A DNA stretch of 64,000 nt from Streptomyces hirsutus (GTDB taxonomy: Bacteria > Actinomycetota > Actinomycetes > Streptomycetales > Streptomycetaceae): positions 20,854 through 84,853 of the forward strand of contig NZ_LIQT01000072.1 of NCBI RefSeq assembly GCF_001418415.1, given 5' to 3'. Position numbers and translations under genes: made by a program. Positions 1,762 through 28,939 of this stretch are shown here, one piece after another (position 1 is the stretch's first letter; each line of letters starts with the position of its first letter). Below the pieces are notes generated by a model that was given only the letters and a program-made list of their open reading frames with translations, was not told the DNA's origin and did not search any database.

Positions 1762-2625
1762 TCAGGCCCGTTGCGGGACGACGGCGACCGGGCACTCGGC
1801 GTGATGCAGCAGGGCGTGGGCGACCCTGCCGAGTTGCAGGCCGAAATGGCCGTGCCGCCTCAGCTCACCCACGACGATCAGGTCGGCGTCGGCCGATGCG
1901 TCCAGAAGGACCGTGTGAGCGGGGCCTTCGACCACTTGCCGATGGACGTCGACCTGCGGGTGCTCCCGTACGGGGGTGCGGAGTGCGTCGGTGAGAAGGG
2001 TGGAGGCTCGTTCCTCATGGACACCGGCGGTGTCGTCCCCGTCCCCCTGCTCGTGGGCGGGACGGCGCCAGGCCCGTACGGCATGGAGCTCGCAGCCGCG
2101 TTTTTCCGCCTCCTGAAAGGCGAACCCCACGGCGGCCGGGCTCACGGTGGAGTCGCCGACGCCGACCACGACACGGCCGAGGGAGCCCTGGCGATTCCGC
2201 TTCCCGCCACGGACCACGACGACCGGGCAGACCGCACGGGCGGCAACCGCGAGACTCACCGATCCCAGCAGCATCCCGGCGACCTCTCCGCGGCCTCGGG
2301 AGCCTGTGACAAGGGCGAAGGATTCAGGACCCGCGTGCAGCAGCACGGACACGGCGTCCTCGGGCAGCACCTCGCTGGAGACCTTCAGCTCCGGATGGCG
2401 CAGCCGGACGCGTTCCGCGCACGAGGCGGCGATGTTCTCCGCCATGATCACCCCGGACGGGGAGTCGGTACTGATGGAGGGAAGACGTCGCTCGTACCGC
2501 TCCCACAGGAAGCCGTGGACAAGCCGCACCGGCAGCCCGTGGTGCGCCGCCTCGTCCGCTGCCCAGTCCACCGCCTCCAGACTGGAATCCGACCCGTCGA
2601 CGCCCACGACCAGCGGGAGTTCCAT
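1762..2625 (-). CDS. Universal stress protein, tandem UspA domains
   Basis: About 287 residues with two UspA domains in tandem. The first opens with LVVGVDGSDSSLEAVDWA and the second with VVVGVGDSTVSPAAVGFA. The ATP-binding signature is seen as GSRGRGEVAGMLLGSVS, and each domain ends in a CPVVVVRG or CPVAVVPQ strand. Tandem-domain Usps of this size are typical of actinobacterial dormancy/hypoxia regulons (mycobacterial Rv2005c and Rv2028c types). ATG at 2625 is preferred; an in-frame GTG at 2634 is possible, and purine-rich sequence precedes both. It is one of four such proteins in the first 29 kb (also 5016, 27176, 28067), which supports a common stress role. Ligand and partner are unknown. 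Confidence 0.9.
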   Translation of the reverse strand: MELPLVVGVDGSDSSLEAVDWAADEAAHHGLPVRLVHGFLWERYERRLPSISTDSPSGVIMAENIAASCAERVRLRHPELKVSSEVLPEDAVSVLLHAGPESFALVTGSRGRGEVAGMLLGSVSLAVAARAVCPVVVVRGGKRNRQGSLGRVVVGVGDSTVSPAAVGFAFQEAEKRGCELHAVRAWRRPAHEQGDGDDTAGVHEERASTLLTDALRTPVREHPQVDVHRQVVEGPAHTVLLDASADADLIVVGELRRHGHFGLQLGRVAHALLHHAECPVAVVPQRA

Positions 2626-2898
2626 CGTCCCCACCGCCTTTCTGCCCGGTCACCGCGAGAATCCCCTGTAAACACCGTCGCACCGCCCTCGGCCCACCGC
2701 GACACATGCCTCGGCTCCCGGAGTTGTCTTCGCCCGGGTTGCGCCACGCCGGTTTGCGGCGATCGTGGAGTCATGCGGCCGGCAGGAGGACACCGCTGGA
2801 TCCGCCCTCCGCAGCCATGGCCCGGCCGCGTGCCGAGGCGTCCGTGGCCGGACAGGAGCCCGGCTCCGCTCCGAGGTCGCGGAGAAGGGACGGCCATC

Positions 2899-3356
2899 AT
2901 GGTCATGCGGACCGGCGTCTTCGGCGTCATGACCAGGGAGCATCGCGAGCAGTTCATCTCACTCGCTCGTGAGGTGTCGTTCGCGGAAGGCGGGCGCATC
3001 CTCAACGAGGGCGACAAGGCGGACCGCCTCTGGACCCACCCGCACGGGCACGGTGACTCTCGGCCTTCACGCGCCGGGACGGCGGGCAGCGGTCGTTGAG
3101 GCATTCGGTGTCGGAAGACCGCTGGGCTGGTCCTGGCTGGTCCTTTGCCGTCACTGGAAGCCGGGCCGGGGCCGGCAGCCCGGTGCGTGCCCACGAGTTC
3201 GGCGCGGCGACGGTTCGTGAGATGTGCGCGAAGGGCCCGAGGCGGACTCACGAGCTGTGCGCTCATGTCTCCGGCGTGCTCGCGCGCCGGCTCCGGTCCG
3301 CCCGGGTGCGACTGCTCGACCTGCGTGCGCCCTACGGTGCGGACGAGGTTCCCTGA
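2899..3356 (+). pseudogene. Crp-like cyclic-nucleotide-binding-domain protein, broken by two frameshifts
   Basis: Three reading frames in succession encode parts of one small CNMP-binding-fold protein. The first frame gives MVMRTGVFGVMTREHREQF and ILNEGDKADRLW. A second frame, from about 3035, gives RTGTVTLGLHAPGRRAAVVE and PLGWSW. A third, from about 3170, gives SPVRAHEFGAATVREMC and ends in VLARRLRSARVRLLDL. An AAGGGA ribosome site precedes the ATG. Streptomycetes often carry intact homologues of about 150 residues beside Usp and CBS genes. Two independent shifts make a sequencing error unlikely as the full explanation, so I call it decayed. It lies between a divergent Usp gene and the CBS-BON gene. 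Confidence 0.75.
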
Positions 3357-3376
3357 ACGAGACGAGGTGCTTCGAA

Positions 3377-4063
3377 GTGCCGCATACTCCGCACATCGTG
3401 AGTGATGTGATGACCCAGACGGTCGTGGCTGTCGGACGCGACGCGCCCTTCAAAGAGATCGTCCGGACCCTGGAACAGTGGAAAGTCAGTGCCATGCCCG
3501 TCCTCGAGGGCGAAGGCCGCGTGATCGGTGTCGTCTCCGAAGCCGACCTGTTGCCCAAGGAAGAGTTCCGTGACAGCGACTCGAGCCTCTTCGAGCAACG
3601 CCGGCGTCTGTCCGATGTCGCCAAGGCCGGGGCGGCGAAGGCGGAGGAACTCATGAGCACCCCAGCCATCACGGTCCACCCCGACGTCACCCTGACCCAG
3701 GCAGCCAGGATCATGGCTGTCCGGCGCGTCAAGCGTCTGCCCGTGGTCGACGACGTCGGCATGCTCCAGGGCATCGTCAGCCGTGCCGATCTGCTGAAGG
3801 TGTTCCTGCGGTCCGACGAGGACATCGAGGAGGAGGTTCGCCGCACCGTGGTGTCCTCCCTCTTCCCGGCCTTCAGCCACGCCGTCCATGTGAAGGTGCA
3901 CGAGGGAGTCGTCACCCTCCGCGGGCACATCCGCGACACCTCGCTCATCTCGGTCGCCGTGCGCCTCGTGCGTGCCGTGGAGGGCGTCGTGGACGTCGAT
4001 CCCCAACTCACCGGTGAGTCCGCCACTCCGGCCGGACCGGGGGCCGAACCGGCGTCGGAATGA
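3377..4063 (+). CDS. CBS domain pair plus BON domain protein
   Basis: About 228 residues. Two CBS motifs fill residues 5-60 (VSDVMTQTVVAVGRDAPFKE; VIGVVSEADLL) and 95-150 (EELMSTPAITVHPDVTLTQA; LQGIVSRADLLK). A BON domain follows (residues ~150-215), with VHEGVVTLRGHIRD and VEGVVDVD. CBS pairs bind adenine nucleotides and BON domains are associated with membrane or phospholipid binding, so this is probably an energy-sensing accessory protein. A mycobacterial CBS-pair parallel is DosR-regulated Hrp1 (Rv2626c), though Hrp1 lacks BON. GTG at 3377 is chosen because GAGG lies 9 nt upstream and homology starts there; the frame stays open upstream through the Crp remnant. Confidence 0.88.
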   Translation: MPHTPHIVSDVMTQTVVAVGRDAPFKEIVRTLEQWKVSAMPVLEGEGRVIGVVSEADLLPKEEFRDSDSSLFEQRRRLSDVAKAGAAKAEELMSTPAITVHPDVTLTQAARIMAVRRVKRLPVVDDVGMLQGIVSRADLLKVFLRSDEDIEEEVRRTVVSSLFPAFSHAVHVKVHEGVVTLRGHIRDTSLISVAVRLVRAVEGVVDVDPQLTGESATPAGPGAEPASE

Positions 4064-4119: not shown

Positions 4120-4615
4120 TCACGCGACCGAAGCAATGCGGTGCCCGGTGATGCGTGTGGGCTCGATCGGCACCCACATCTCGCGTTCGCCCCCGGCCAC
4201 GGCTTGGTGTGGGCCAGGTCGGTCGGTCTCCGTACAGCGTCGGGCTCGGTGACCATCCGCGCATGTCCGGCGACGAGTACGCTCCAGCCCTGGCTCATGG
4301 CCTCCTCCACATGGTCGACCTCGAAGGCGACCTGTGATCCCGCGGCCGCCGCGGGGAGGGACTTCGGCGCGGTGCGGAACGCGATCCCACCGTTGATGAC
4401 GTCGTAGTTGACCGGAACCACCGCCGGGCCGTCAGGTGTCGACACCGCGAAGCGTCCCACGCCGTGTGGGGAGATGCGGGCGCGGCATTCCTCGGGGTCC
4501 AGGTCCCGCGGCTGAGGCCGGAACCCCGTCTTCGATACGGTGGCGGACCTTGCCAGTGAGTGCGGCCAGTCGCTCGGAGGTCACCGCCCGTGGTGCAAGG
4601 GGTTTCCGGATCGGA
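4120..4615 (-). pseudogene. XRE-PPOX (pyridoxamine 5'-phosphate oxidase-like) protein remnant, frameshifted
   Basis: The body (VGRFAVSTPDGPAVVPVNYD, VAFEVDHVEEAMSQGWSVLV, MVTEPDAVRRPTDLAHTKPW) is closely similar to the PPOX half of the intact protein at 25003-25911. At 4190-4194 one base is missing from a C run (five where six are needed). Restoring it recovers GEREMWVPIEPTRITGHRIA and a stop at 4120. Upstream, DLDPEECRARISPHG continues the similarity, and a further frame change near 4520 leads to SERLAALTGKVRHRIEDG, which resembles the linker or HTH region of the paralogue. The DUF1918 and HTH parts are not recognisable. The 5' boundary is approximate. Confidence 0.65.
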
Positions 4616-5015: not shown

Positions 5016-5894
5016 ATGGAACGAGTCCTCACCGTGGGCCTAGACGGCTCACCCGAGAGCCTTGCCGCCGCCCATTGGGCCGCCGACGAAGCCCAGCGGC
5101 GCAAACTCACGCTGCGACTGCTGCACGCATGGCCCCTGCTGGCACCGGAACCGACCGGCGTCCCCGCGGAAGTGGACCAGAACTACTGGGCGAAGCGGCT
5201 CGTGCACAACGCCCGGACGGAACTCCAGGCGCACCACCCGGGCCTCACCGTCGTCGGCAACCTGGTCGCCGACGACGCCCAGGGCGCACTGCTCCGAGCG
5301 GCGTCGGAGTCCGAGATGCTCGTGCTCGGCTCGCGCGGCCTGACTCCCGTGGAGAGCTACTTCCTCGGCGACATCAGCATGATCGTCGTGGGACGCGCCG
5401 AGCGGCCGGTGGTCCTGGTACGTGCCGAGGAGCGGGCGGAAAGGCCCTCGACACCCGAACCAGGTGCGACAGGCGACGTAGTGGTGGCACTGAAACTGCA
5501 CGCCCCGTACGACGAACTGCTCGATTTCGCCTTCACCACCGCCGCGGCGCGGAGCTTGCCGCTCCGCGCCGTCCACGGCCGCGGCACTCCGCTCCACGCG
5601 TACACCCCCTGGGGCGTGGACCACACCGTGACCCAGGAGATCGTCCAGGAGGCGCAGAAGGACCTGAATCAGGCGCTCCGTCCCTGGCGCGAGAAGTTTC
5701 CGGGCGTGAGCGTCGCCGACACCATCCGTCTCGACAGTCCTGCCAGGGCCGTTGTAGCAGCCGCAGAGGACGCCGAACTGCTGATCGTCGGCCGACGCAA
5801 GCACCACCCCAACCTGGGACCGTACCTGGGCCCGGTGGCCCAGGCCGCCGTTCACCACGCGCACTGCCCTGTCGCCGTCATCCCCCATGACTGA
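5016..5894 (+). CDS. Universal stress protein, tandem UspA domains
   Basis: 292 residues, two UspA domains. Domain 1 runs from VLTVGLDGSPESLAAAHWAA to RPVVLVRAEE, with GSRGLTPVESYFLGDISMIV as its nucleotide-binding loop. Domain 2 starts near VVVALKLHAPYDELLDFAF and ends VAQAAVHHAHCPVAVIPHD. The second-domain loop is less canonical (VGRRKHHPNLGPYLGPVAQA). A GGAGG site sits 8 nt before the ATG. It is a cytoplasmic stress protein of the Usp family, role by family only. The same frame stays open for about 90 codons after the TGA (see 5895-6649). Confidence 0.9.
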   Translation: MERVLTVGLDGSPESLAAAHWAADEAQRRKLTLRLLHAWPLLAPEPTGVPAEVDQNYWAKRLVHNARTELQAHHPGLTVVGNLVADDAQGALLRAASESEMLVLGSRGLTPVESYFLGDISMIVVGRAERPVVLVRAEERAERPSTPEPGATGDVVVALKLHAPYDELLDFAFTTAAARSLPLRAVHGRGTPLHAYTPWGVDHTVTQEIVQEAQKDLNQALRPWREKFPGVSVADTIRLDSPARAVVAAAEDAELLIVGRRKHHPNLGPYLGPVAQAAVHHAHCPVAVIPHD

Positions 5895-6649
5895 GCCGAG
5901 CTCGGGCAGCAAGCCGTTGATGTCGGAGCGGCGGGCCGACGCGTCCGCACTCCGGCCCGGTGCCGCCTCACCAGCCGCGCACCCGGGGCGTCCGATGCAG
6001 GTCCCGACGTGGCCACCGTCATGGCGGCCATGGAACCGCCGTGGTGGGAAGCCGTCAAGGCCGAAACGAGCGGGCCCCTGGAGACCGCCGTGGTCCAGGC
6101 ACTGGCAGCGATTCGACCCCACGCCGATGGCCGGGCCCCGGTCTTCCGTCGCCCCTGCACGGAGCCGGACTGAGGGCTCGCAGAGAATCAACCTGTTGCT
6201 TCCCGTGATTCAGCTCGTCGGTGTGGTGTGCGCGTTTCCGAGTCGATCTGGCGGGGCCACGCACCGTATGCCCGTCACGGCCTCGAGCGAGGAGGCCGCC
6301 GTGGCTGAACCGAGACCTCCTGACCCTGGCGCGGCGGGCCGTGGCTGCTTGCTTCCTCGCCCCCTTCCCGCTGCTCGCGCAGCGCTGAATCCACTTCCCG
6401 AGGGACCGCCCAGGACCGCCTGGGAACGCGGCCGCGCCCAGCCGACGGCACCTCGGTCGGGGTGTACTGGGAGAACCGCCCCGGCAGTGACTGGGCGAAG
6501 GACCCTGCAGCGGGCCGGGCGAGAGTGCTGTACCGAACAGGTCCGCCATTGCGGCCCAGCCGCACACGGGTCCGCCAGTCCCAGTTGCCCGAACGTGCTG
6601 TGAGAGCGACGGTGGAGGGGCAGCCGGGGGAGTCAGGGAGTGGGTGATC
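5895..6649 (+). other. 750-bp stretch without a confident gene; in-frame open tail behind the Usp gene
   Basis: After the Usp stop at 5894 the same frame stays open to a TGA at 6171-6173. Its last ~55 codons have coding-like third positions (segment TVMAAMEPPWWEAVKAETSG, then ETAVVQALAAIRPHADGRAP). I recognise no family and see no ribosome site. The rest (6174-6640) holds no supported gene. A perfect CCCAGG-ACCG-CCTGGG inverted repeat lies about 240 bp before the alcohol dehydrogenase. Confidence 0.4.
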
Positions 6650-7705
6650 ATGCGAGCACTCGTCTACCACGGCCCCGGACGGATTGCCTGGGACAAGGTC
6701 ATGGATCCGGCGATCGAGGATCCGACCGACGCGATCGTGCGCGTCGACGCCACCACCATCTGCGGCACCGATCTGCACATCCTGCACGGGGAACTCCCCG
6801 AAGTGAAGCCCGGAACGGTCCTCGGCCACGAGGCTGTCGGCGAGGTGATGGACGTCGGCCGCGAGGTCCACTCCATCAGCCCGGGCGATCAGGTGATCGT
6901 GTCGTCCGTCACGGCCTGCGGCCACTGTCAGCCCTGCCGGGACAACACGTTCGGACAATGCCGCGGCGGGGGCGGGTGGATGCTCGGGGATCTGATCAAC
7001 GGCACCCAGGCCGAGTTCGTACGGGTGCCCTTCGCCGATTACTCCACCCGGCGGACGCCCGGCACCCTGGCGCTCGATGACGCCGTCCTGTTCTCCGAAG
7101 TCCTCCCCACCGCCTACGAGGTCGGTGTGCGCAACGGACACGTGAGCCCCGGAGACACCGTCGTCGTCGTGGGCGCCGGTCCGATCGGACTCGCCGCGGT
7201 CATGACCGCGCGGATCTACTCACCGCGCAGAATCATCGCGGTGGACCTGTCCTCCTCCCGGCTGGAAGCCGCCGGCCGGCTGGGAGCCGACGCCGCCGAG
7301 CTGCCCGGACGGCTGATGGCCGATCTCGCGGACGGACCCGGCGCCGACGTGGTCATCGAGGCCGCCGGAGCTCCGGACAGCTTCGTCCTGTGCACCCGGG
7401 CCGTCCGCTCGGGCGGGCACATCGCCAACATCGGCATGCACGGCAAACCGGCCACACTGCATCTCGAGGCGCTGTGGCGCAAGAACGTGACGATCAGCAC
7501 CGGCCAGGTCGACACCTCCTCCACGCCCTGGCTGCTCGACCTGGTGACCTCCGGACGCCTTCACATCTCCCCGCTCGTCACCCACACCTTCGGGCTCAGC
7601 CGGATGGAGAACGCCTACGAGGTCTTCTCCCACGGCACCGACACCGGCGCCCTCAAGGTCGTACTGCACCGCGAAGAGAGCGCCCTCTCCGGTGACCGGC
7701 CGTGA
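6650..7705 (+). CDS. Zinc-dependent alcohol dehydrogenase (MDR family)
   Basis: About 351 residues of the medium-chain dehydrogenase/reductase family. The catalytic zinc site is TTICGTDLHI (Cys) with GHEAVGEV (His-Glu). The four structural-zinc cysteines are in CGHCQPCRDNTFGQC. The Rossmann motif VVGAGPIG lies around residue 175. It would interconvert an alcohol and an aldehyde or ketone with NAD(P)H. ATG at 6650 has GGGAG 9 nt upstream; GTG at 6644 is an alternative. Zinc alcohol dehydrogenases are found among hypoxia/dormancy genes of Streptomyces coelicolor, which fits the neighbours. A decayed second one lies at 18739. The substrate is not predictable. Confidence 0.9.
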   Translation: MRALVYHGPGRIAWDKVMDPAIEDPTDAIVRVDATTICGTDLHILHGELPEVKPGTVLGHEAVGEVMDVGREVHSISPGDQVIVSSVTACGHCQPCRDNTFGQCRGGGGWMLGDLINGTQAEFVRVPFADYSTRRTPGTLALDDAVLFSEVLPTAYEVGVRNGHVSPGDTVVVVGAGPIGLAAVMTARIYSPRRIIAVDLSSSRLEAAGRLGADAAELPGRLMADLADGPGADVVIEAAGAPDSFVLCTRAVRSGGHIANIGMHGKPATLHLEALWRKNVTISTGQVDTSSTPWLLDLVTSGRLHISPLVTHTFGLSRMENAYEVFSHGTDTGALKVVLHREESALSGDRP

Positions 7706-8052: not shown

Positions 8053-8169
8053 ATGGGCGTCCTCGTCGGATACGCGACCGTCCACGGTTCCCCCCGGACG
8101 ATCGCCGAGCGGATCGCTTCCGTGCTGAGCGGTGCGGGACTGAACACAGAGGCCTCGACCTGGACCTGA
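8053..8169 (+). pseudogene. Truncated flavodoxin, N-terminal fragment only
   Basis: A perfect AAGGAGGTG ribosome site precedes an ATG that opens a 38-codon frame starting MGVLVGYATVHGSPRTIAER, the FMN-phosphate-binding start of a flavodoxin-domain protein (usual length about 150-180). The frame then ends at TGA, and the following ~110 bp up to the convergent lipoprotein gene keep no flavodoxin features. It is probably a remnant with an intact translation start. The rest of the gap 7706-8278 holds nothing else I can name. Confidence 0.6.
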
Positions 8170-8278: not shown

Positions 8279-9025
8279 TCAGTGCTCGCTGGTGGCGATG
8301 TAGGTGCCGTGCCAGGTGTGGTCCCACACGGCGCCGGTGGAGGCGTTGACCGACAGCATGCCGGTGATCTTCCCGGAGCGCAGGGTGTGCAGGGTGTAGT
8401 AGCCGGGGAACGCCTCGGCCTCACCGGCGGTCAGGTCACCGCCCCGCTCGCGCAGCCACTGCTGGGCGCGGTCCTGGGCCTGGTCGGCGGAGATCCGGGT
8501 CTCGGTCCGGCCGCCGCCGTGCATCCCGTAGTCGGTGTTCCACATCATCGCGGGTCCGTACTCGATCCCGGTGTCACCGTCGGCCGGGTCGACGAGGATC
8601 TCGGTGGCCGGTTTCCCGTCAGGGTTTTCCAGTTCGGCGTAGAAGTTCTTCGAGAACTGCATGACCTCACCGACACGCAGATCGAGCCGGTCGGCGAAAG
8701 CCTCGGCCCGCTGTCGGGCCTGGTCCAGGGTCGTCACCGGGGTGCCGCCGCCCCGCTGCCAGTAGTGCCCGCCCATCATGCCCGGCCCCCACGAGCAGTC
8801 CTCGCGGCCCATCATGCCCGGTCCCATGCCGGGCCCCCACGAGCCCCAGTCGTCCCAGTCATCGCCCGACATGCCCGACCTCCAGCAATCGCCGGCGGAG
8901 GAACTGGCTGGGGCGGTGGCCGGGTGGAGGGAGGTGCTGTCGCCCGACGCGCATCCGGCGGCCAGAGTGCCGGCCAGCGCGAGGGCCGCCAGCGCGGCGG
9001 CGGTCCGCCTGCTCGTGCTGGGCAT
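8279..9025 (-). CDS. Secreted lipoprotein with Met/Trp-rich segment and PepSY-like domain
   Basis: About 248 residues. The N-terminus is a lipoprotein signal: MPSTSRRTAAALAALALAG followed by lipobox LAAGC. A low-complexity linker follows, rich in Met, Gly, Trp and Asp, with GPGMGPGMMG and GPGMMGGHYW. The C-terminal half has a PepSY-like pattern: ISADQAQDRAQQWLRERG, FPGYYTLHTLRSGKI, GMLSVNASTGAVWDHTWHG. Methionine/histidine-rich segments of this kind often bind copper, but that is inference. ATG at 9025 is used; in-frame ATG 9031 and GTG 9034 also exist, and GGAAGAG precedes the group. The gene converges on the flavodoxin remnant and diverges from the metal-transporter remnant at 9167. Confidence 0.75.
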   Translation of the reverse strand: MPSTSRRTAAALAALALAGTLAAGCASGDSTSLHPATAPASSSAGDCWRSGMSGDDWDDWGSWGPGMGPGMMGREDCSWGPGMMGGHYWQRGGGTPVTTLDQARQRAEAFADRLDLRVGEVMQFSKNFYAELENPDGKPATEILVDPADGDTGIEYGPAMMWNTDYGMHGGGRTETRISADQAQDRAQQWLRERGGDLTAGEAEAFPGYYTLHTLRSGKITGMLSVNASTGAVWDHTWHGTYIATSEH

Positions 9026-9166
9026 GATCATCACTCTTCCGGGTCGTTCCTGTCCCGACCGCCCGACCCGGCGGACGCGGGTCTGTCCCCTCCAGCCTCT
9101 CTCCGGGCGCAAGGACTGCCCAGGGCCGTCCGGACCCGGCCGGTGCACCGATCGGCCCGTGCATGA

Positions 9167-9532
9167 GACGAGATCAAGAGCGGTGAGCCGGACGAGGTCA
9201 AGGAGCGCCGGGCGCTGAAGTTCATCGCGCTCACGTTCTTCGCGCTCGCTGTCCACGCCACCGTCGAGGGCATCCGCGACCTGATCGGCGGGGAGAAGCC
9301 CGACACCTCCCTCGTCGGTATCGTCCTGACCGGCCTGTCGATCGTGATCATGCCGTGGCCGGCGCGGGCCGAGCGCGAGGCGGGCCTGGAGATGGACTTC
9401 CCGCTTGGTCGTCGTCGCCGACGCCGCCGAGACCAGGTTGTGCGCCTGGCTGAGCGTGTCCACCTTCGCCGGCCTGCCGGCCTTCGCCCTGTTCGGCTGG
9501 ACCCGGTCGCCCGGTCGCCGGATTCGTCACGC
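9167..9532 (+). pseudogene. Cation diffusion facilitator (CDF) transporter fragment
   Basis: An open stretch (EPDEVKERRALKFIALTFFA, EGIRDLIGGEKPDTSLVGIV, LTGLSIVIMPWPARAERE) matches the middle of streptomycete CDF metal-efflux proteins: an export helix, then the residues before the next helix. A frame change near 9405 leads into ADAAETRLCAWLSVSTFAGL, the expected continuation. A second shift around 9500 gives LDPVA...GFV. There is no start (TGA lies just before 9167), and the sequence stops where the transposase remnant begins. N- and C-terminal transmembrane parts are missing. Confidence 0.65.
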
Positions 9533-9979
9533 TGAGGTACTTGTCTCCTCGCCGTAGTTGTACGAGAACAGGGCCGGGGAGGAGTCGATCACCGCCCGCG
9601 ACCAGTCGAGCTGTTTCGCTGCTCGCAGCCTGGTCGGCAGCACGGCGTGGAGCCGGTCCCGGACGCCGGCCTCGTTCCACGCGGCAGGCCGCCGCCGGCA
9701 CGTCATGCCCGAACCGAAGCCCAGCTCCTGCGGCAGGTAATCCCGCTGGATCCCGGTATGCAGCACGAACAGGATCCCGCACAGCGCCTGCCGGTCAGGC
9801 ACCCTCGGCCGGCCGGCTACCCGCTTTGGCCCCGGCTCGGGCAGCAACGGCTCGATCAGCGACCACAGTTCATCCGAGACGGTCCATGGAGGCGACTCCC
9901 TCTTCCCTACGAACAGACCAACGAGCATCCAAGCCGACAGTCGCATCATCAGAGACTTCTGTGAGGACCTCTTGGGCAC
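9527..9979 (-). mobile_element. IS5-family transposase, N-terminal part only
   Basis: 150 codons. The N-terminal region is typical of IS5-type transposases: VSDELWSLIEPLLPEPGP, GRPRVPDRQALCGILFVLHT, LPQELGFGSGMTC and LDWSRAVIDSS, the last carrying the first catalytic Asp. Just after DSS the sequence diverges and the frame runs into the CDF remnant, so the second Asp and the Glu of the DDE site are missing. No terminal inverted repeats or target duplication could be found. It is probably the scar of an insertion followed by deletion that also trimmed the CDF gene. Confidence 0.65.
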
Positions 9980-18738: not shown

Positions 18739-18915
18739 ATGGGTACCCACCGGGACCTGCGCGAGGTGCTCGCGCTGCACGCCGCCGGACGTACCAGGTC
18801 ATCGTGCGGACCTCTGCAGCCGCCGACGAGTTCATCGCCGAAGTCCTGGACGGGCGGTAGTCCTGGACGGGCGGTTCAGGACACGCATCGTCCTCGAGAT
18901 GCAATTCGACCGCAG
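18739..18915 (+). pseudogene. C-terminal remnant of a zinc alcohol dehydrogenase
   Basis: MGTHRDLREVLALHAAGRT matches the conserved stretch near the C-terminus of AdhP/AdhA-type zinc alcohol dehydrogenases (GSFMGTRxDLxEVL...). After a frame change, VIVRTSAAADEFIAEVLDGR follows, then RTRIVLEMQ, the usual terminal strand. About 250 N-terminal residues are missing. The remnant lies between the FDH operon promoter and the pyruvate phosphate dikinase gene. 18541-18738 contains no recognisable gene and may be further decayed parts. Confidence 0.5.
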
Positions 18916-21556: not shown

Positions 21557-22809
21557 TCACCGCGTGGCGATGTGTTCGACGACGTCTCGGGTCGCCGATG
21601 GGCCCCCGCGCGGCGGGCGTTCCGGTCCGAACCCTGTCTGGAGCCGCATGACGACAGGGCCGAGGCCGGACAGCGCACAGGCGATCACCAGGTCGGTGGG
21701 AGACAGAGGCTCCGTACCCAGCAGGTCCTGGAGGGGCGGCAGGTAGACGCCGGCTGCCTGCAGGCTCAGTGCCGTCCCCACCGCGATCAGCAGGAACGGG
21801 TTGGTCAGGCTGCCGGGACGCGCCCGGGACCCGAGTGCCACGCCGAGCTGGGTCGCCCCGAGCACCAGGAAAATCATGGACTGCCAGGGGCGTCCGGTCT
21901 CCCGGGCCCAGATGCCGGCCGCGAGAGTCACGGTGGCGATGAAGGCGCCCATGAACAGGCTCCGCGGCCACAGACCCGCCCCCAGCGCACTCTCCGCGGG
22001 AGGCCGGGGCGGGTGGCGCATCGTGGCCGGGGCGACGGGTTCCGCGCCGAGAGCGACGCCGGGCAGGCCATGTGTGAGCAGGTTGATCCACAGGATCTGT
22101 GCGGGCAGGAGCGGTAGCGGCATTCCCAGGAAGGGGCCGAGGAGCATGACCAGGATCTCCGCCGTGCCACCGGCGAGGGCGCTGTCGGCCCCGGTGGCGG
22201 TCACGTCGACCCGTCCGTGGCCCCGGACGATGACCGTGCCCGCCGACACCGTCCCGCGCGTGCCGTCCCCGTCGGGGGCCTTCTCCACCGGAGCGGACTC
22301 ACCCGTCAGCGACGACTCGTCCGCCAGCAACGACGCCGCGGCGAGCACGTCCGCGTCTGCGGGGACGACGCCCCCTCGGCCACCAGGACCAGGTCGCCCG
22401 GAACCACCTCGCTCGCCGCGACGGAGCGTTCCTCACCGTCCCGCACCACCCTGGCGGCGGGGGCGTTCATGGCGGACAGGGCCGCTACCGCCTGTTCCGC
22501 CCGCACCTCCTGCACGACGCCGACCACGGTGTTCACGGTGAGCACGAGCAGGATCACGGAGGCGTCGGAGAGATCGCCGGTGGCGATCGTCAGGGCGGCC
22601 GCCACGAGCAGGACGAGGACCAGCGGGTCGCGCAGTTGCTGCAGCACCCGCCGCCACACCGGGATCCGCGGTTCTGAGGGGATCTCGTCGGGCCCGTGGC
22701 GCGTCAGACGCCGTGCCGCCTCGTCCGACGACAGACCTGTAGCGGGAGTCACATCCGGGCGTCGGCCTGCTTCGGCAGCGGGTTTCCGGCTGCCACCGGG
22801 GCGGTTCAC
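21557..22809 (-). pseudogene. P-type cation ATPase with internal deletion and frameshift
   Basis: The N-terminal part from GTG 22809 shows GLSSDEAARRLTRHGPDEIP, VVGVVQEVRAEQAVAALSAM and VVPGDLVLVAEG. At 22371-22375 one base is missing from a C run, shifting frame. The next frame continues correctly with LADESSLTGESAPVEKAP and GHGRVDVTATGADSA. There the whole nucleotide-binding and phosphorylation region (DKTGT, GDGANDA; roughly 450 residues) is absent, and LAGGTAEILVMLLGPFLGMP, the late membrane domain, follows directly in frame through to the C-terminus (IATR). It cannot be an active pump. The intact P2-ATPase of the window is at 11348-14125. Confidence 0.8.
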
Positions 22810-22927: not shown

Positions 22928-23806
22928 TCAGGGCTGGGCGCCGTCGCGGCCGTGGTCGGCGGCGTAGGCGGCGAACACGGCCGCCGGCGGGCCGCCCGTA
23001 CGGAGGAAACGCTGGTCGAGGATGGCGGCGAGGTCCTTCAGCGCGCCGGCGAGCAGGGCGCCGGCCAGTCGTACCTCCGGCCGTCGGGCCGCCTGCCCGT
23101 GTCGGGTGAGCACGGTGGCGTAACCGACCATGGCCGCCAGCGACGAGTGGTCCTCCCCGTCATGGAAGTAGTACGCCTCGGCGTACTGGGTGAAATCGAT
23201 GCGGACACGTGCGACTTCGCCGGCCAGGCTGTCCAGCAGCAGCGCCCCCGCGGTGCAGTCGAGCTGCCGCGTCGTCGGACCCGCTTCGCGCAGCAGAGCC
23301 AGCCGGAGGGCCAGAACCCTCCTGCGGGTCAGCGCCGGATAGATCTCCAGCACCCAGGAGACGGTGGCCGTCAGGAGGACGAAACCGACGAGGGCTTCGA
23401 GCGGTGAGACCAGACGGAGCCAGTCCTCGCCGGGTGCGATGTCACCCAGCCCCAGGGTGGCCACCGTGACCAGAGACAAGTACACGGAGTCGAGCAGAGC
23501 CGGCTCCTGCGCCGCCTGGGAACCGGGGGAGAAGGTGAACGCCCCGGGCATGTGGGGCCAGTAGACGATCGCCCAGCCGAGGACGACGGTGACGGTCCAC
23601 ATGCTCACCACCGTGACCATGGCGAGCGGCCCGACGAGCCCGACCACGCGCCCGGGCGCACGGAAACGCCGGGCCAGTCGCCAGAGCGCCGTCATCACGA
23701 GGCGGCTCAGCCCTCCGTGGCGTGTGGGGTGCCAGAGTGTGTGGAACAGGTCCCGCAGGGTGACCATGACGAGCCCGGCTCCGACCAGCGAGACCAACCA
23801 CTTCAT
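22928..23806 (-). CDS. Two-TM potassium channel family protein
   Basis: 292 residues. An N-terminal membrane anchor (MKWLVSLVGAGLVMVTLRDL) is followed by a second hydrophobic segment (LAMVTVVSMWTVTVVLGWAI) and a pore loop with VTVATLGLGDIAP, a variant of the K+ filter TVGYGD. The pore helix ends in LEALVGFVLLTATVSWVLEI. The cytoplasmic C-terminal ~150 residues are mostly helical and have no RCK domain, so ligand gating could come from separate proteins. The filter TLGLGD lacks the usual GYG and selectivity is uncertain. GGGGAG lies 7 nt before ATG 23806. It could be the membrane partner of the orphan TrkA pair, but that is speculation. Confidence 0.82.
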   Translation of the reverse strand: MKWLVSLVGAGLVMVTLRDLFHTLWHPTRHGGLSRLVMTALWRLARRFRAPGRVVGLVGPLAMVTVVSMWTVTVVLGWAIVYWPHMPGAFTFSPGSQAAQEPALLDSVYLSLVTVATLGLGDIAPGEDWLRLVSPLEALVGFVLLTATVSWVLEIYPALTRRRVLALRLALLREAGPTTRQLDCTAGALLLDSLAGEVARVRIDFTQYAEAYYFHDGEDHSSLAAMVGYATVLTRHGQAARRPEVRLAGALLAGALKDLAAILDQRFLRTGGPPAAVFAAYAADHGRDGAQP

Positions 23807-23952: not shown

Positions 23953-24945
23953 TCAGGGTTCGATGCCGAGTACCTCCGCCACGGGGCGGCGCGGCGTGCC
24001 GGGACCGTTCGGGCCGTATCCCAGGCGCAGCAGGACCTGCGTATAGCCCGTCCCGGTCATCGGGTCGCGCAACGGCCAGCGCAGGTCCGTCCATTCGAGA
24101 GGCTGGGTCGCGAAGGAGCTGGAGAGACCCTCACGGGTGGCCAGCAGGAGGACACGTTGCATGGCCTGGCCCGCGCGGAGCCAGTTCTCCGGGCGGTCGT
24201 GGTCCGTGCTGATGAGGGCCAGCTGCGGGGTCTGTTCGAAGTCCGCGGCGTCGCGCCCGGCCACCTGTCGGGGGCCCGCGAAGTCACGCATGGGCGCCTT
24301 ACCCCCGCGCTTGCGCGGCCCGAAGGCGTAGTGCGGGACTCCGTCGTCGGCGGTGCTCACCGACGGGGCGTCGATACGCGTCCACCGGGCCAGGTCCTGG
24401 TCGCTGCCGCGGTCGGTGATGTTGCGTGCCTCGGCTTCCTGGACCGCTTCCAGTACCTCCCGCAGATGCCATGAGGTGGGGAACATCAGTGCCGCTCCCT
24501 CGACGCGAGCGGCCGCGCCGAGAGCCTCCCGCACGGCTCCGGGGATCCGCCGTTCCTCGAACGGGTGGCGGCTGCTGTGGCGTTGGTGGATCGCCGGATA
24601 CAGCGCGCCGAGGCCGCTCTCGTCGTGCGTAGGGCCGGCCAACCGTACTCTTGCCAGGAACGCCTGGTCAGCGGGGTCGGGCAGGAGCCGGGTTTCCGGG
24701 TGCCGGCCCTCGTGGACGATGGCGGCCCTCAGATTCAACAGGGCGGCACCGCAGCCAAGATGAATGCCGCGGGTGTCGGGGTCGGAGTGCGGCATGGCGC
24801 GCTCGAAGTCGGCCCGCACCTCGAAAGTGCGGCTGCGCCGGTGATAAAGGAAGCGCCAGGGCTGCGCGTTGTGCATCGACGGGGCGGCCACCGCGTCGTG
24901 CACCAGGGCGGCCACCCACTCGTCGGACGGTACTGGCCGGCTCAC
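23953..24945 (-). CDS. Acg-family nitroreductase-like protein
   Basis: 330 residues. Nitroreductase-fold features are APSMHNAQPWRF at residues 21-32 (FMN-phosphate region), a central RHSSRHPFEERRIPG, the second subdomain with MQRVLLLATREGLSSSFATQ, and the end TQVLLRLGYGPNGPGTPRRP. This is the pattern of the Acg subfamily (Rv2032 of M. tuberculosis, DosR-regulated and adjacent to hspX), which are flavin-sequestering proteins rather than active nitroreductases. Here too an Hsp20 gene, now decayed, lies close by (26033-26294). A GGAGG site precedes the ATG. Confidence 0.9.
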   Translation of the reverse strand: MSRPVPSDEWVAALVHDAVAAPSMHNAQPWRFLYHRRSRTFEVRADFERAMPHSDPDTRGIHLGCGAALLNLRAAIVHEGRHPETRLLPDPADQAFLARVRLAGPTHDESGLGALYPAIHQRHSSRHPFEERRIPGAVREALGAAARVEGAALMFPTSWHLREVLEAVQEAEARNITDRGSDQDLARWTRIDAPSVSTADDGVPHYAFGPRKRGGKAPMRDFAGPRQVAGRDAADFEQTPQLALISTDHDRPENWLRAGQAMQRVLLLATREGLSSSFATQPLEWTDLRWPLRDPMTGTGYTQVLLRLGYGPNGPGTPRRPVAEVLGIEP

Positions 24946-25002: not shown

Positions 25003-25911
25003 TCATCCATCGGCCGGGGTGATGCGGCGGCCCGTGAGCTGTGCGGGCCGGATCGACACCCACATCTCGCGTTCACCGCCCGGCCATGGTGTGGTGTGGG
25101 CGTGTCCGGTGAGTCTGCGCACGGCGTCAGGCTCCGTCACGACGCTCGCGGGGCCGACGGCGAGGACGCTCCAGCCCTGACTCAGGGCCTCGTCCATGTG
25201 ATCGACCTCGAAGGCGACCTCCGTTCCGACAGCCGCTGCGGGCGTGGAGTTCGGCGCGGTCCGGAAGACGATCGCGTCATCCACGACGTCGTAGTTGACC
25301 GGAACGACCGCCGGGCGGCCGTCGGACGCCGACACCGCGACGCGCCCCACCCCGTGCGTCGAGAGCAAGATGCGGCATTCCTCCGGGCCGATGTCCCGCA
25401 GCCGAGGACGCAGCAGCGCCTGTCCTTGGCCGGGTGGCAGATCCACTCCTCCGCCGCGCAGCGTGGTGACGGTGGTGCCCAGCGCGTCGGCCAGCCTGAT
25501 GAGGGTTGCCGCACTCGGGTCGGCAGGCCGTTCCTCCAGGTACTCCAGGTAGCCGGGGGACATTCGGGCGCGGCGGGCCGTCTCCTCGCGGCTGAGCCGC
25601 TGCCTCCGGCGTTCGACGGCCACGCGCCGGCCGATGTCACCGGGGCGGGGTGTCCCGGGCACCGCGGTCTCCTCCTCGGCCGGATCGGGGCCGGAAGGGG
25701 AGCGGGCGGTCCCGGGGTGCCCGTGTTCGAGATGCCGGATGTGCGCGTCGGGCCCGGGGAACACGAGCGTTGTCTCGCCCGTGTCCGACCAGCGCACGTC
25801 GTAGGGCGGAGTCCCGTCCTCGTGATGGAGTCCGATGATCTCGCCGTCGCGCCTGGGACCGTCGGCCGTCGTGCTTTCGATGACGAGCTGATCGCCGAGA
25901 TGAGCTCTCAT
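25003..25911 (-). CDS. DUF1918 - XRE HTH - PPOX three-domain protein
   Basis: 302 residues. Residues 1-60 form a DUF1918 domain (MRAHLGDQLVIES; PYDVRWSDTGETTLVFPGPD). Residues ~90-160 form an XRE helix-turn-helix (RRVAVERRRQRLSREETARR; LEYLEERPADPSAATLIRLA). Residues ~165-300 form a split-barrel PPOX domain (VGRVAVSASDGRPAVVPVNY, FEVDHMDEALSQGWSVL, PWPGGEREMWVSI). It may be a flavin- or ligand-sensing transcription factor. DUF1918 proteins such as Rv0569 belong to the mycobacterial DosR regulon. GAGGG precedes ATG 25911. A frameshifted copy of its C-terminal half lies at 4120-4615. Confidence 0.87.
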   Translation of the reverse strand: MRAHLGDQLVIESTTADGPRRDGEIIGLHHEDGTPPYDVRWSDTGETTLVFPGPDAHIRHLEHGHPGTARSPSGPDPAEEETAVPGTPRPGDIGRRVAVERRRQRLSREETARRARMSPGYLEYLEERPADPSAATLIRLADALGTTVTTLRGGGVDLPPGQGQALLRPRLRDIGPEECRILLSTHGVGRVAVSASDGRPAVVPVNYDVVDDAIVFRTAPNSTPAAAVGTEVAFEVDHMDEALSQGWSVLAVGPASVVTEPDAVRRLTGHAHTTPWPGGEREMWVSIRPAQLTGRRITPADG

Positions 25912-26032: not shown

Positions 26033-26294
26033 CCGGTGATCTCGATACGCCGAGCCTCGCCCTCCTCGGTCTTGGGGACCTTCACCGTGAGGACCCCGTC
26101 GGTCGGACAGGTAGGCGTCGTCGGTGTCCTCGACGTCGGCCAGGGGCGCCCATGGCTCGGTCGCACCGAACCCGGGGGAAGCCGCCACCGGGAAAGGCGG
26201 CGCGCACGAGCTGGCCCACCCCGGCGCGCGGGTCCTCCAGCTCCCGCAGGACTGCCGGAAGCCCACCTCTGCCGTGTCGTGCGGGGTGTGTCAC
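26033..26294 (-). pseudogene. Hsp20/alpha-crystallin remnant with central deletion
   Basis: A good start (GAGGAGGG before GTG 26294) opens GGLPAVLRELEDPRAGVGQL and VRAAFPGGGFP, the N-terminal arm of streptomycete Hsp20 proteins. After a frame change, WAPLADVEDTDDAYL begins the alpha-crystallin domain. The next ~60 residues are absent and another frame resumes at TDGVLTVKVPKTEEGEARRI, the C-terminal strand pair, then EIT. The N-terminus, first strand and last strand survive; the body does not. HspX (Rv2031c) is the mycobacterial counterpart in a DosR regulon, next to acg as here. Confidence 0.65.
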
Positions 26295-26343: not shown

Positions 26344-26631
26344 TCACGTGGGCCACCCGGCGACCTTCCGGCCGTGCGGCCGCGGTGTGCCCATGCCCTC
26401 GATGTCGCGCTCGGCGGTCTTCAGCAGCCGCCGGGCCAGGTCGTTCAGGGCCCGGCCCGCGGCCAGCTCGTCACCGATCTCCGGCACGTTCGCGTCCGCC
26501 GGATGGCAGTGCGCGGTCCCGTGACCGGTGAGCTCTGTGGTGCCGGTGTCCAGGATCAGATGGGCCTTCGTCGTGCCCTCGTCGTCCTCGAACAGATGAA
26601 GACGAACCGTCCATTCCGATGTGTGCGGCAT
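26344..26631 (-). CDS. DUF1876 protein (Rv1738-like)
   Basis: 95 residues matching the DUF1876 family: WTVRLHLFEDDEGTTKAHLI near the N-terminus, TGHGTAHCHPADANVPEIGD, and ELAAGRALNDLARRLLKTAE. The Mtb member Rv1738 is strongly DosR-induced and structurally resembles ribosome-hibernation factors, so a role in translational shutdown is plausible but unproven here. A GAGGAGAG ribosome site precedes ATG 26631. It lies just upstream of the Hsp20 remnant on the same strand. Confidence 0.88.
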   Translation of the reverse strand: MPHTSEWTVRLHLFEDDEGTTKAHLILDTGTTELTGHGTAHCHPADANVPEIGDELAAGRALNDLARRLLKTAERDIEGMGTPRPHGRKVAGWPT

Positions 26632-27175
26632 CGCTCTCCTCCTCACCTCGCTGCGGACCGATGCGATCCGGCCGGGCTTCGTTCTGAGACCTGGGGCCGT
26701 GCGGAGGTGGCCGACAGCTGTTTCCCGATATGGCGCCGGACGCGGGCGGTGAGCACACCGAGCGACACCGAGCGACTCGGAGCCGTCGCGCGGGGTGCGA
26801 TCGGCCACCGGATCCGGCGGGCGGCTGAGGACGGCCTGCCCGGGGCTGCGGCGAATCCACCCGGTACTCGTCGAGCGTGGGCCTCCGGCCGGTGTGCCGC
26901 CCGTTCCGCATCACCGTCTCCACCAGCGCAACGCCGTCGTCGGGGAGTTCGCGCCCTGGGGCGCGTGATCTCCGCGCCTCGACGGCGGACCGGAGGTGCG
27001 GGGCGAACCTTGTGCGCTCATGAGTCAGTCTCCCGTGACTCGTCGGCGGTCCCCCCACCACCTGCTCCCACCGTCGAACGGCGTTGGGCTCGGGGCAGGG
27101 GGCCGAAAGTCCCTGCGGGCCGGTTTCCGGCCCGATTCCACCGGCTGCCGTCATGGTCCCCCTCTGCCGCCGTGG
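26632..27175 (-). other. 540-bp stretch without a supported gene
   Basis: On the minus strand one segment (DDGVALVETVMRNGRHTGRR, then PTLDEYR) reads like a protein, but it has no clear start, no ribosome site and an unbroken neighbour in other frames. I could not assign it to a family. It may be a decayed small regulator. Confidence 0.35.
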
Positions 27176-27997
27176 TCATATCTGCGGAACGACCGCGACA
27201 GGACACGGCGCGTGATGCAGCAACGCGTGATTGATCAGGCCCAGTTGCAGGCCCGGGTGCCCCTGCCGCCTGTGTGCGCCGACGACCAGCAGGTCCGCCG
27301 CCGACGCCGCGTCCAGCAGCGCTCGGCGGGCCGGGCCCTCAATCACCCTGGGGTCCACCCGGGTGTGGCGATACGGATCCGCCGGGCCGCGCAGGGCGTC
27401 GTCGAGCACCTGGGACGGTGGGCGCCGATGGGTCTCCAGGGCGTACCACGATGAGGCCGGCCGTGGGGTGAGAGCCCTGGACGACGGGTTCCAGGCGTGC
27501 ACCGCCGTCAGCCGGCAGTTCCGCACATGGGCCTCGCGGAACGCGAACTGCAGGGCCGTGCCGCTGCCCTCCCCCTCCTCGACACCGACGACGATGTTCC
27601 CGAACAGGCCGTCCCGGTGCTCCGCGGTACCACGCACCACGACGACCGGGCAGTCCGCTCGTGCCGCCACGGCCAGACTGACCGTGCCCAGGAGCATTCC
27701 GGTGAGGTCTCCGAGCCCTCTGGACCCGAGTACCAGCGCGAAGGCGTTGCGCCCCTTGTGGATGAGGGCGGAGACGGCGTCCTCGTGCGGCGCCTCGCTT
27801 GCCGGCCGGACCGTGGGAGCTCTTTGCCTGGCGCGCTCCGAGGCGGCACCGATCACGCCGGACGCCTCGTGGTCACCGGCCGCCGCATGCAAGAGGTGGA
27901 GCGGCACACCATGCCGGACTGCCTCGTCGGTGGCCCAGTCCACCGCCTCCAGACTCGCTTCGGATCCATCGATGCCGACCACCAGGGGAATCGCCAT
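27176..27997 (-). CDS. Universal stress protein, tandem UspA domains
   Basis: 273 residues. Domain 1: IPLVVGIDGSEASLEAVDWA, loop GSRGLGDLTGMLLGTVSLAV, end CPVVVVRGTA. Domain 2: NIVVGVEEGEGSGTALQFAF, loop VGAHRRQGHPGLQLGLINHA, end CPVAVVPQI. The N-terminus is close to the Usp at 1762 (LVVGVDGSDSSLEAVDWA), so the two are likely duplicates flanking the island. GGAGG precedes ATG 27997; an upstream GTG at 28042 is less likely. Confidence 0.9.
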   Translation of the reverse strand: MAIPLVVGIDGSEASLEAVDWATDEAVRHGVPLHLLHAAAGDHEASGVIGAASERARQRAPTVRPASEAPHEDAVSALIHKGRNAFALVLGSRGLGDLTGMLLGTVSLAVAARADCPVVVVRGTAEHRDGLFGNIVVGVEEGEGSGTALQFAFREAHVRNCRLTAVHAWNPSSRALTPRPASSWYALETHRRPPSQVLDDALRGPADPYRHTRVDPRVIEGPARRALLDAASAADLLVVGAHRRQGHPGLQLGLINHALLHHAPCPVAVVPQI

Positions 27998-28066
27998 CGC
28001 ACCTGCCTCCTCCGCCTCGACCACCCGGCCGTGCGCGGGCACGGTGCCCCCGGGCCGTTCGGCGCT

Positions 28067-28939
28067 TCACACCGGGACCACGATGACGGGGCAGTGGGCA
28101 TGGTGCAGTACCCCCTGGCTCACCGAGCCCAGCAGCATGCCCGTGAACCCTCCGTGCCCGCGGGCTCCCACGACCAGGCCCAAGGCGTGTTCCGAGGCTT
28201 CCGTCAGGACTTGCACGGGGTGACCTCGCACGACTTCGTGGTGCAGCTCGACTCCCGGGTGCGTCGCGGTGCGGCCCGCGACCGTCTCGGACAGCACACG
28301 GCGGCACTCCCGCACCGCGGCGTCCTCGTCCAGGACACCGAGGAGCGGCGGATGCCACACGTACAGGGCTCTGAGGTTCGCTCCCCGCAGGGCCGCCTCC
28401 TCGAACGCCACATCCACAGCCGCGACCGCGTGCGGACTGTCGTCGACGCCGACCACGAAGTAAGCGGGTTCCTGGGTGGTGTGCTCCGGCTCCGGGACGA
28501 CGACGACCGGGCAGGGCGCGTGAGCGATGAGCGGGAGGGAGACGGAGGCCGAGGTGAACAGTTCGTGCCGGGTGCTCAGATGCCAGGAGCCCACCACGAC
28601 CAAGGAAGCGTTCCGCGCCTCCTCACGCAGAACCCACGCCGGCTCGCCCTCCGCCAGCAGGGTCGACATCTCCACCGTCGGCCGCCGGGATTCGACGAAG
28701 GCGACCGCCCCCTCGAGCACCTCGACACCCGTTTCGTGCAGCGTCCGGTTCCACTGCTCCCAGGACGGCTGGGTCTTGCCCGACCGGTATCCCCCCGTCG
28801 GTACGCCTTGGGCGTGGACGAGCCGCACCGGCAGGCCGCGGCGATCCGCCTCGTCGGCGGCCCAGGCGAGTGCCAGCCGCTTCGCGGGGTCGGGGTCGAT
28901 ACCCACCACGATCGGTTTACGGCCGTCCGCACCGCTCAT
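28067..28939 (-). CDS. Universal stress protein, tandem UspA domains
   Basis: 290 residues. Domain 1 starts KPIVVGIDPDPAKRLALAWA and ends CPVVVVPEPE. Its loop (GSWHLSTRHELFTSASVSLP) lacks the usual Gly spacing of ATP-binding Usps. Domain 2 starts YFVVGVDDSPHAVAAVDVAF with a canonical loop GARGHGGFTGMLLGSVSQGV and ends CPVIVVPV. One nucleotide-binding site may therefore be lost. GGAGGTGCC precedes ATG 28939. It is 69 bp upstream of the Usp gene at 27176 on the same strand, so a two-gene operon is likely. Confidence 0.9.
   Translation of the reverse strand: MSGADGRKPIVVGIDPDPAKRLALAWAADEADRRGLPVRLVHAQGVPTGGYRSGKTQPSWEQWNRTLHETGVEVLEGAVAFVESRRPTVEMSTLLAEGEPAWVLREEARNASLVVVGSWHLSTRHELFTSASVSLPLIAHAPCPVVVVPEPEHTTQEPAYFVVGVDDSPHAVAAVDVAFEEAALRGANLRALYVWHPPLLGVLDEDAAVRECRRVLSETVAGRTATHPGVELHHEVVRGHPVQVLTEASEHALGLVVGARGHGGFTGMLLGSVSQGVLHHAHCPVIVVPV

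Follow-up and report, generated by a model that had tools for sequence, protein, structure and literature searches.

A partly broken block of dormancy-type genes in Streptomyces hirsutus and its likely OsdR-OsdK regulators on another contig

Dormancy genes of the kind gathered in the DosR (DevR) regulon of Mycobacterium tuberculosis also occur in soil streptomycetes, where they can stand together as a block. Here, we describe such a block in a stretch of 64,000 nucleotides from Streptomyces hirsutus (the window; bases 20854-84853 of contig C690). In our reading, held with a probability of about 0.8, it is a partly broken Streptomyces version of the OsdR/DevR dormancy block; an intact OsdR-OsdK pair, whose genes lie on another contig, likely induces some of its surviving genes when oxygen is low. 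That the DosR-regulon families Usp (universal stress protein), Hrp1, Acg and Rv1738/Rv2632c occur together in the block is plain, while control by OsdR, induction by hypoxia and the cargo of a P-type pump in the block are read from sequence. This kind of island is already known from S. coelicolor; what is new is the regulator on a different contig, the definition of the breaks against fuller relatives and a conserved unit of a pump and two TrkA proteins. A gene set common to tuberculosis bacteria and soil streptomycetes suggests an island that is shuffled and eroded and whose master switch can sit apart. The conserved remainder that stands out is the pump with its two RCK (TrkA) partners, joined to formate dehydrogenase in some species.

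The genome is a draft of 8.5 Mb in 783 contigs, with a completeness of 99.85% and a contamination of 0.17%. Open frames were picked with a purpose-built codon-usage model and compared with Pfam, NCBIfam and the sequences of the PDB; broken pieces were recognized where whole proteins from relatives matched in tblastn, these proteins being classed by Pfam. Close relatives carrying the P-type ATPase of the block are nearly all Streptomyces; their fetched loci are numbered with L, L011 being contig C645 of the present genome and L090 plasmid p1 of S. fungicidicus.

The likely regulator pair and the OsdR-like sites

An earlier note, made from the letters of the window, held that the sensor and regulator are absent, so that control must come from outside or be lost. 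They do lie outside the window, but the genome has not lost them, as far as its sequence can say: the search for OsdR/OsdK homologues that the note called for, run through GAF_2, led to open frames for both on C645. The osdR homologue (5184-5840; domains RR and GerE) matches DevR (PDB 3c3w) over 210 residues with E 6.7e-79. Directly behind it stands the osdK homologue (5859-7667; GAF-GAF-HisKA_3-HATPase), whose first GAF domain (GAF-A) matches DosT (PDB 2vzw, E 1.4e-48) and also DevS, and keeps the HHPPM segment of DosT, which we take to have a role in heme binding. The 16-bp OsdR consensus of PMC5069765, AGGGCCGATCGGCCCT, occurs exactly at C645:5019; osdR starts roughly 110-165 bp further on, according to which start codon is used. 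Several further OsdR-like sites lie between osdR and a flavohemoglobin-type gene, which together with a small unknown gene (C645 2813-4710) stands divergent to osdRK; NO detoxification may belong to the OsdR regulon. Another gene of glycoside hydrolase family 65 (GH65) follows osdK.

An OsdK-type kinase is found at E 1e-150 or better in 43 of 61 Streptomyces genomes, the present one included, and at least eight of those have a PPDK-like segment no more than about 10 kb from the kinase gene (compared by eye). Five Streptomyces loci (L040, L048, L050, L053 and L063) have osdR or osdK, at least 74% identical, at most about 10 kb away from the pump. Linkage of osdRK to the block is thus common in relatives; here, to judge by a draft assembly, it has been lost, probably through rearrangement. 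Contig C592, checked as a possible second block, carries Usps, and no osdRK was found among seven of its frames scanned.

How far do the sites reach into the block? From the 25 sites listed in Table 1 of PMC5069765, many of them that paper's own predictions, we derived a symmetric matrix. Sites were accepted at a score of 12.5 or more, with permuted matrices and intergenic versus genic counts as controls. Genome-wide searches with an OsdR pattern had been uninformative (264 matches versus 309 for the reversed control, among the matches listed), as had a tighter pattern (110 versus 98, likewise among the matches listed), and matrix scoring with intergenic controls worked where these gave no signal. 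Applied to the block (35.4 kb, of which 8.8 kb is intergenic), it yielded three strong sites.

9122..9137, no strand assigned: OsdR-like site AGGGCCGTCCGGACCC, score 14.4, some 95 bp upstream of the start called for the gene at 8279-9034
27099..27114, no strand assigned: OsdR-like site GGGGCCGAAAGTCCCT, score 14.8; L059 has a site at the matching place (20883), at a nearly equal distance from its usp gene
28051..28066, no strand assigned: OsdR-like site CGGGCCGTTCGGCGCT, score 13.7, between two usp genes

All three are intergenic, as against an average of 0.18 intergenic sites for 200 permuted matrices, none of which reached three. At a threshold of 10.5 there were seven sites, five of them intergenic, and one of the 200 permuted matrices reached five. 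The 34.5 kb to the right of the block contains one site scoring 13 or more. An OsdR-like site of score 14.9 lies at 58915-58930 of the window, inside the 5′ part of a frame (56784-59306) that also has a GAF_2 match.

The enrichment recurs in relatives. In 73 loci (1.54 Mb) we counted 113 intergenic and 23 genic sites, with equal counts on the 72 loci that have called genes, on which 40 permuted matrices averaged 5.3 intergenic and 26.7 genic sites with an intergenic maximum of 15. A site 10-320 bp upstream was found for 12 of 41 CBS-BON genes, 5 of 19 alcohol dehydrogenase (ADH) genes, 7 of 31 Acg-type genes, 6 of 28 DUF1918-type genes, 21 of 128 usp genes and 14 of 99 genes labelled as ATPases, compared with 47 of 719 unlabelled genes.

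A mechanism can be outlined as follows: OsdK would sense oxygen through its heme GAF domain and phosphorylate OsdR, and phosphorylated OsdR would bind the sites at 9122, 27099 and 28051, so that a usp gene, the DUF1876 gene and the gene for a small exported-looking protein would be transcribed more strongly. Products of Usp, Hrp1, Rv1738 and Acg type would then help to maintain the non-growing state of the cell, with formate dehydrogenase supplying NADH and the P-type pump, together with its TrkA partners, preserving the balance of cations. The five-gene set of formate dehydrogenase and pump has no OsdR-like site and is therefore predicted to answer to another signal.

Gene content and decay of the block

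The features of the block and its edges are as follows, with negative numbers lying left of the window.

1..1686, minus strand: GH65 protein of 799 residues, extending left to -713; 80% identical to its L059 orthologue
1762..2625, minus: tandem-domain Usp (PF00582, two stretches)
2896..3341, plus: broken Crp/Fnr-type cNMP-binding gene in three frames (tblastn with L064 and L060 proteins, the L064 protein being PF00027)
3407..4063, plus: CBS-BON protein, open frame (PF00571 twice, PF04972)
4143..4523, minus: broken gene of the pyridoxamine-5'-phosphate oxidase-like (PNPOx) type (partial PF12900, tblastn)
5016..5894, plus: tandem-domain Usp (PF00582, two stretches)
5961..6170, plus: last 70 residues of an AAA_33 kinase-type protein of about 520 residues (tblastn, Pfam on relative)
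6644..7705, plus: zinc ADH, open frame (PF08240/PF00107)
8053..8154, plus: first 34 residues of a flavodoxin (tblastn, Pfam on relative)
8279..9034, minus: small exported-looking protein, by eye similar to a PepSY lipoprotein; an L014 gene is 50% identical
9527..9979, minus: piece of an IS4/5 transposase (PF13340)
10039..10695, minus: TrkA (RCK) protein 2 (PF02254, PF02080)
10692..11345, minus: TrkA (RCK) protein 1 (PF02254)
11348..14125, minus: P2-type cation-transporting ATPase, open frame (IDLGSD in M6, SQFF in M8)
14122..16812, minus: formate dehydrogenase alpha subunit, FdhA (TIGR01591, 758 bits against a cut-off of 666)
16800..18518, minus: NuoE-NuoF-like fused NADH subunit (PF01257, PF01512), likely the partner of formate dehydrogenase
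18694..18885, plus: C-terminal remnant of an ADH (tblastn, Pfam on relative)
18936..20282, plus: PPDK with an in-frame deletion of 446 codons
21004..21423, minus: Hrp1/Rv2626c-type CBS-pair protein (PDB 1xkf, E 6e-47)
21599..22659, minus: broken second P-type ATPase, middle lost (tblastn)
22928..23806, minus: ion-channel-type membrane protein (PF07885)
23953..24945, minus: Acg-type nitroreductase-fold protein (PF00881; PDB 2ymv, E 1e-19, weak but full length)
25003..25911, minus: DUF1918-HTH-PNPOx protein (PF08940, PF13560, PF12900)
26090..26260, minus: N-terminal remnant of Hsp20 (tblastn and DNA match collinear with S. fungicidicus)
26344..26631, minus: DUF1876/Rv2632c-like (Rv1738-type) protein (PF08962; PDB 4wpy, Rv1738, E 1e-15)
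26828..26944, minus: C-terminal remnant of nicotinate phosphoribosyltransferase, NAPRTase (tblastn and DNA match collinear with S. fungicidicus)
27176..28042, minus: tandem-domain Usp (PF00582)
28067..28939, minus: tandem-domain Usp (PF00582)
30525..32935, minus: CNNM/'hemolysin'-family pair, collinear with the S. fungicidicus block

The earlier note had recognized four tandem-domain Usps and Hrp1-like, Acg-type, DUF1918 and DUF1876 proteins, together with formate dehydrogenase, ADH and an Hsp20 remnant, and these families, each found at the coordinates it had given, hold on the profile search that it had asked for. Its PPDK is present as a family, though as a broken gene. The limits that it gave, 1762..28939, are too narrow: related genes continue past both ends, with the GH65 gene, an ADH at -2454 and a fifth Usp at -3758..-2889 on the left and the CNNM pair on the right. 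Transposase-type frames (rve, HTH) stand just left of the leftmost usp gene (L001 15789-17011). The small protein of 8279-9034, which has no match in Pfam or NCBIfam, is rich in methionine and glycine and has its sole relative among the fetched loci in L014; the OsdR-like site before its gene is well placed.

Three small genes, of Hrp1, Acg and Rv1738 type, were searched in the PDB; their nearest solved relatives are M. tuberculosis Rv2626c/Hrp1, Acg and Rv1738. Usp, Hsp20, NAPRTase, P-type ATPase and PNPOx families belong to the DosR regulon as well. Gene order differs from that of M. tuberculosis, and several members are broken here. We know of no TrkA partners in the M. tuberculosis DosR regulon. 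The similar OsdR-controlled set that the earlier note mentioned for S. coelicolor is borne out by PMC5069765, which places it in the region SCO0167-SCO0219 and reports that OsdR binds and activates the promoters tested. Usps, ADH, nitroreductase, PNPOx, a 16-bp palindrome, OsdR and OsdK are common to both (PMC5069765), and so are a Crp-type regulator and PPDK, which are broken here. Unlike in S. coelicolor, osdRK lie on another contig, a formate dehydrogenase-pump-TrkA-TrkA set is present and no nitrate reductase was seen among the block genes.

A fuller counterpart lies on plasmid p1 of S. fungicidicus TXX3120 (NZ_CP023408.1, about 294-361 kb), which carries Usps, the pump-TrkA-TrkA unit (pump 90% identical), nitroreductase, GH65, PPDK, ADH, CBS-BON-like and PNPOx genes and a CNNM row matching window 30536-32956. 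It has NAPRTase, DUF1876, Hsp20 and nitroreductase genes in a row, and also an AAA-type gene, CBS genes and GH65 beside usp. The annotation of p1 gives full coding sequences for PPDK, Hsp20, NAPRTase, a flavodoxin and a cyclic-nucleotide-binding gene, which are broken here, and osdR (89.5% identical) lies inside the block beside nar genes, with OsdR-like sites before it. This plasmid probably shows what the genes lost here looked like. As formate dehydrogenase in turn seems to be reduced to two ends on p1 (see below), different members have been lost in different strains.

At least ten genes or pieces in the block are broken, where the earlier note had claimed at least eight: Crp/Fnr-type, PNPOx, AAA_33 kinase, flavodoxin, transposase, ADH, PPDK, second P-type ATPase, Hsp20 and NAPRTase. 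The flavodoxin, ADH and Hsp20 pieces are short tblastn matches of 29-66 residues, with E between about 1e-7 and 1e-9, and that of NAPRTase, 39 residues long, scored only within a joint match, so that these four calls are less sure than those of PPDK and the ATPase. The DNA of window 26108-26928 is collinear with the Hsp20-DUF1876-NAPRTase row of S. fungicidicus, which backs two of them. PPDK has 448 residues versus 894 in three orthologues; residues of about 383-828 are missing, the deletion point reads as a two-residue repeat, and the score against TIGR01828 (627 bits) falls short of the cut-off of 843, so that the copy is not a PPDK of whole length with phosphohistidine and PEP-binding parts. 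Of 101 genomes, this one alone gave a match along the whole of a 283-base probe spanning the junction, and in the other genomes matches reach to one side of it (both among the matches listed). The open front part has a dN/dS of 0.16 versus L034, which fits a recent loss. An open frame of 934 residues on contig C9 with a whole PEP-utilizers_C domain is likely the genome's other PPDK.

The partial decay described in the earlier note is real, above average and not exceptional among such blocks. With the truncated called genes of the window unmasked, the 32.7-kb block has five remnant clusters; masked as in the relatives, it has three. Its rate of 0.92 per 10 kb compares with 0.49 on average for 60 relatives (13 non-streptomycete loci of the 73 having been dropped beforehand), and since nine of the 60 are at or above this rate, the decay does not set the block apart. 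Across 12 gene comparisons with relatives dN/dS is 0.09-0.37, and in one distant pair (8279-9034) it is 0.96.

Weighing OsdR control against other explanations

Several observations weigh against induction of the block by OsdR. In the present assembly osdRK are on C645 and the block on C690. Most block genes, the whole formate dehydrogenase-pump-TrkA set among them, have no site of 12.5 or more before them. Three sites are a small number, found in 8.8 kb of intergenic DNA; that at 28051 is 9 bp from the called usp start and that at 27099 about 470 bp before DUF1876. In relatives no site was found 10-320 bp upstream of Hrp1-type (0/18), GH65 (0/8), TrkA (0/118), NuoEF-labelled (0/8) or FdhA (0/7) genes, nor of the osdR-labelled genes (0/5), of which only two are at least 85% identical, one of them at a contig edge. 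Is the island then regulatory dead wood, a former OsdR block that has parted from osdRK, has lost most of its promoters, is no longer induced and is on its way out? The ten or more broken genes or pieces, the many genes with no site and the PPDK junction unique to this genome among the matches listed, by which the loss looks recent and ongoing, would all fit. On the other hand, osdR and osdK are open, three sites remain, the dN/dS values other than that of the one distant pair are low, broken pieces also occur in relatives, and a trans-acting regulator needs no linkage. We regard such a relic as unlikely, though not negligibly so.

Could the block instead be an ordinary stress-gene cluster that shares families with the DosR regulon and obeys other regulators, such as Crp-type proteins or sigma factors? 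Usp, CBS, ADH and Hsp20 families are indeed widespread, and neither the formate dehydrogenase-pump set here nor several families in relatives have OsdR-like sites. The motif enrichment over permuted controls, in the block and in relatives alike, argues otherwise, as do the osdR/osdK genes near the pump in five Streptomyces loci, the osdR inside the S. fungicidicus block and the binding and activation by OsdR at the S. coelicolor promoters tested (PMC5069765), so that this explanation is quite improbable. We give still less credit to sequencing or assembly errors of the draft as the source of the breaks, in spite of its 783 contigs and a Crp-type piece that is broken, as far as seen, by frame shifts only. 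Most breaks are large losses (446 codons of PPDK, the middle of the second ATPase) rather than frame slips, Hsp20, flavodoxin, ADH and NAPRTase survive only as ends, and long genes alongside are open in an assembly of high completeness and low contamination. A partly broken block, some of whose genes are likely still induced by OsdR, accordingly stays our preferred reading. The motif check proposed in the earlier note agrees with it, none of the permuted matrices having equalled the block at a score of 12.5 or more.

The formate dehydrogenase-pump-TrkA unit

The best-kept part of the block (18518-10039) encodes the NuoEF-like protein, FdhA, the P-type ATPase and two TrkA proteins in adjoining called frames that overlap or lie 2 bp apart, an arrangement that likely forms an operon. 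Over about 8.5 kb its DNA is 87-89% identical to that of S. toyocaensis and S. marokkonensis, with dN/dS of 0.09-0.33 versus L058 or L014. Two TrkA genes stand directly behind the pump in 57 of 72 loci. In a looser count of 58 pump-TrkA-TrkA loci, 57 have at least one DosR-type family in the fetched stretch and 43 at least one intergenic OsdR-like site. TrkA genes are lacking in eight loci with pumps at about 40% identity and in three Actinoplanes-type loci at 64-66%. NuoEF orthologues occur at 79% identity or more in six of the 72 loci; two of the eight relatives labelled NuoEF-like reach just 35% identity and were not taken for this gene. In the stretches of S. fungicidicus p1 examined no formate dehydrogenase is annotated, and only two ends of its genes match beside the pump. 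These ends (L090 19746-19921), overlapped by a short annotated hypothetical protein, look like a deletion scar.

As to the signal for this unit, consensus patterns for Rex, Crp/Fnr and FNR had no exact match in the window, so that no other regulator can be named for the formate dehydrogenase operon. The TrkA proteins do not sit beside a TrkH/KtrB channel as in Trk/Ktr systems, the one TrkH match of the genome being on C445. Like the RCK subunits of CpeA/KhtT type, they are encoded beside a cation transporter other than a Trk/Ktr channel, but the partner of those subunits is an antiporter and c-di-AMP binds, according to PMC10117811; neither TrkA protein of the block has the c-di-AMP signature that this paper quotes. 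Among the open-licence PMC papers listed in our searches, none was seen to describe TrkA partners of a P-type ATPase in Streptomyces, and a search there for formate dehydrogenase, hypoxia and universal stress protein in Streptomyces gave only an unrelated review.

Which cation does the pump carry? The earlier note called it CtpF-like. It is a P2-type pump within a DosR-type gene set, as CtpF is; CtpF is described as a P2A calcium pump of M. tuberculosis (PMC7525011, PMC3573892) and as a DosR regulon member (PMC3573892), and S. coelicolor as having no family-2 Ca-ATPase (PMC3924187). The pump does not simply fit the label of the note, CtpF itself not having been compared; it has an Asp at the M6 Asn of SERCA, a Gln at its M8 Glu and two TrkA genes behind. 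Over the full length its best PDB matches are SPCA (523 bits), LMCA1 (518), Na,K-ATPase (514) and SERCA (461), so that the longer-range match expected of a P2C (Na,K-ATPase) pump is not the best one. In NCBIfam only the general P-type model TIGR01494 is above cut-off; the cation-specific models, all below theirs, rank the Ca models TIGR01522 (631 bits) and TIGR01116 (583) ahead of the Na,K model TIGR01106 (572). The last 240 residues score 109 bits with SERCA versus at most 80 with Na,K- or H,K-ATPase, and M4 reads PEGLP. In the 53-residue M5-M6 piece the order is H,K-ATPase alpha2 (37 bits), Na,K-ATPase (31), LMCA1 (30) and SERCA (29), by small margins. Here M6 reads IDLGSD, compared with IDLGTD in H,K alpha2 and Na,K-ATPase and VNLVTD in SERCA. 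An Asp...Asp pair in M6 and a Gln in M8, presumably cation-site residues of P2C type, are thus both present.

Asp-Leu-Gly-Ser/Thr-Asp in M6 and SQF in M8 are found in all 56 long pumps linked to TrkA. Among 29 labelled ATPases that have no TrkA, from these same loci, six carry the Asp-Asp pair as well, all six in non-streptomycete loci; others read INLLTHG or belong to other classes. The M6 pattern matched nothing in two plasmid pumps (Mycolicibacterium, Rhodococcus) and is uninformative for those. Since the pair occurs in pumps with no TrkA, it is older than the TrkA link. The lasting core of many Streptomyces OsdR-type islands could be a new kind of pump, a P2-type ATPase whose cation site resembles that of Na,K-ATPase and which an NAD(H)-binding RCK pair would steer in place of a beta subunit, so that the redox state of the starved cell would set Na/K pumping; in this clade formate dehydrogenase from the same operon would feed the NADH signal. 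With the longer comparisons favouring Ca pumps and the pair older than the TrkA link, a monovalent cargo is only a bold reading, and we hold the scheme as a whole to be rather doubtful. If true, it would couple ion balance to the redox state of cells starved of oxygen, a link that we did not find described among the open-licence PMC papers listed. Cellulosimicrobium loci L073 and L085 combine DosR-type sets (Usp, Acg, ADH and OsdR-like genes) with a 41% identical pump that has the Asp-Asp pair in M6 and no TrkA genes beside it.

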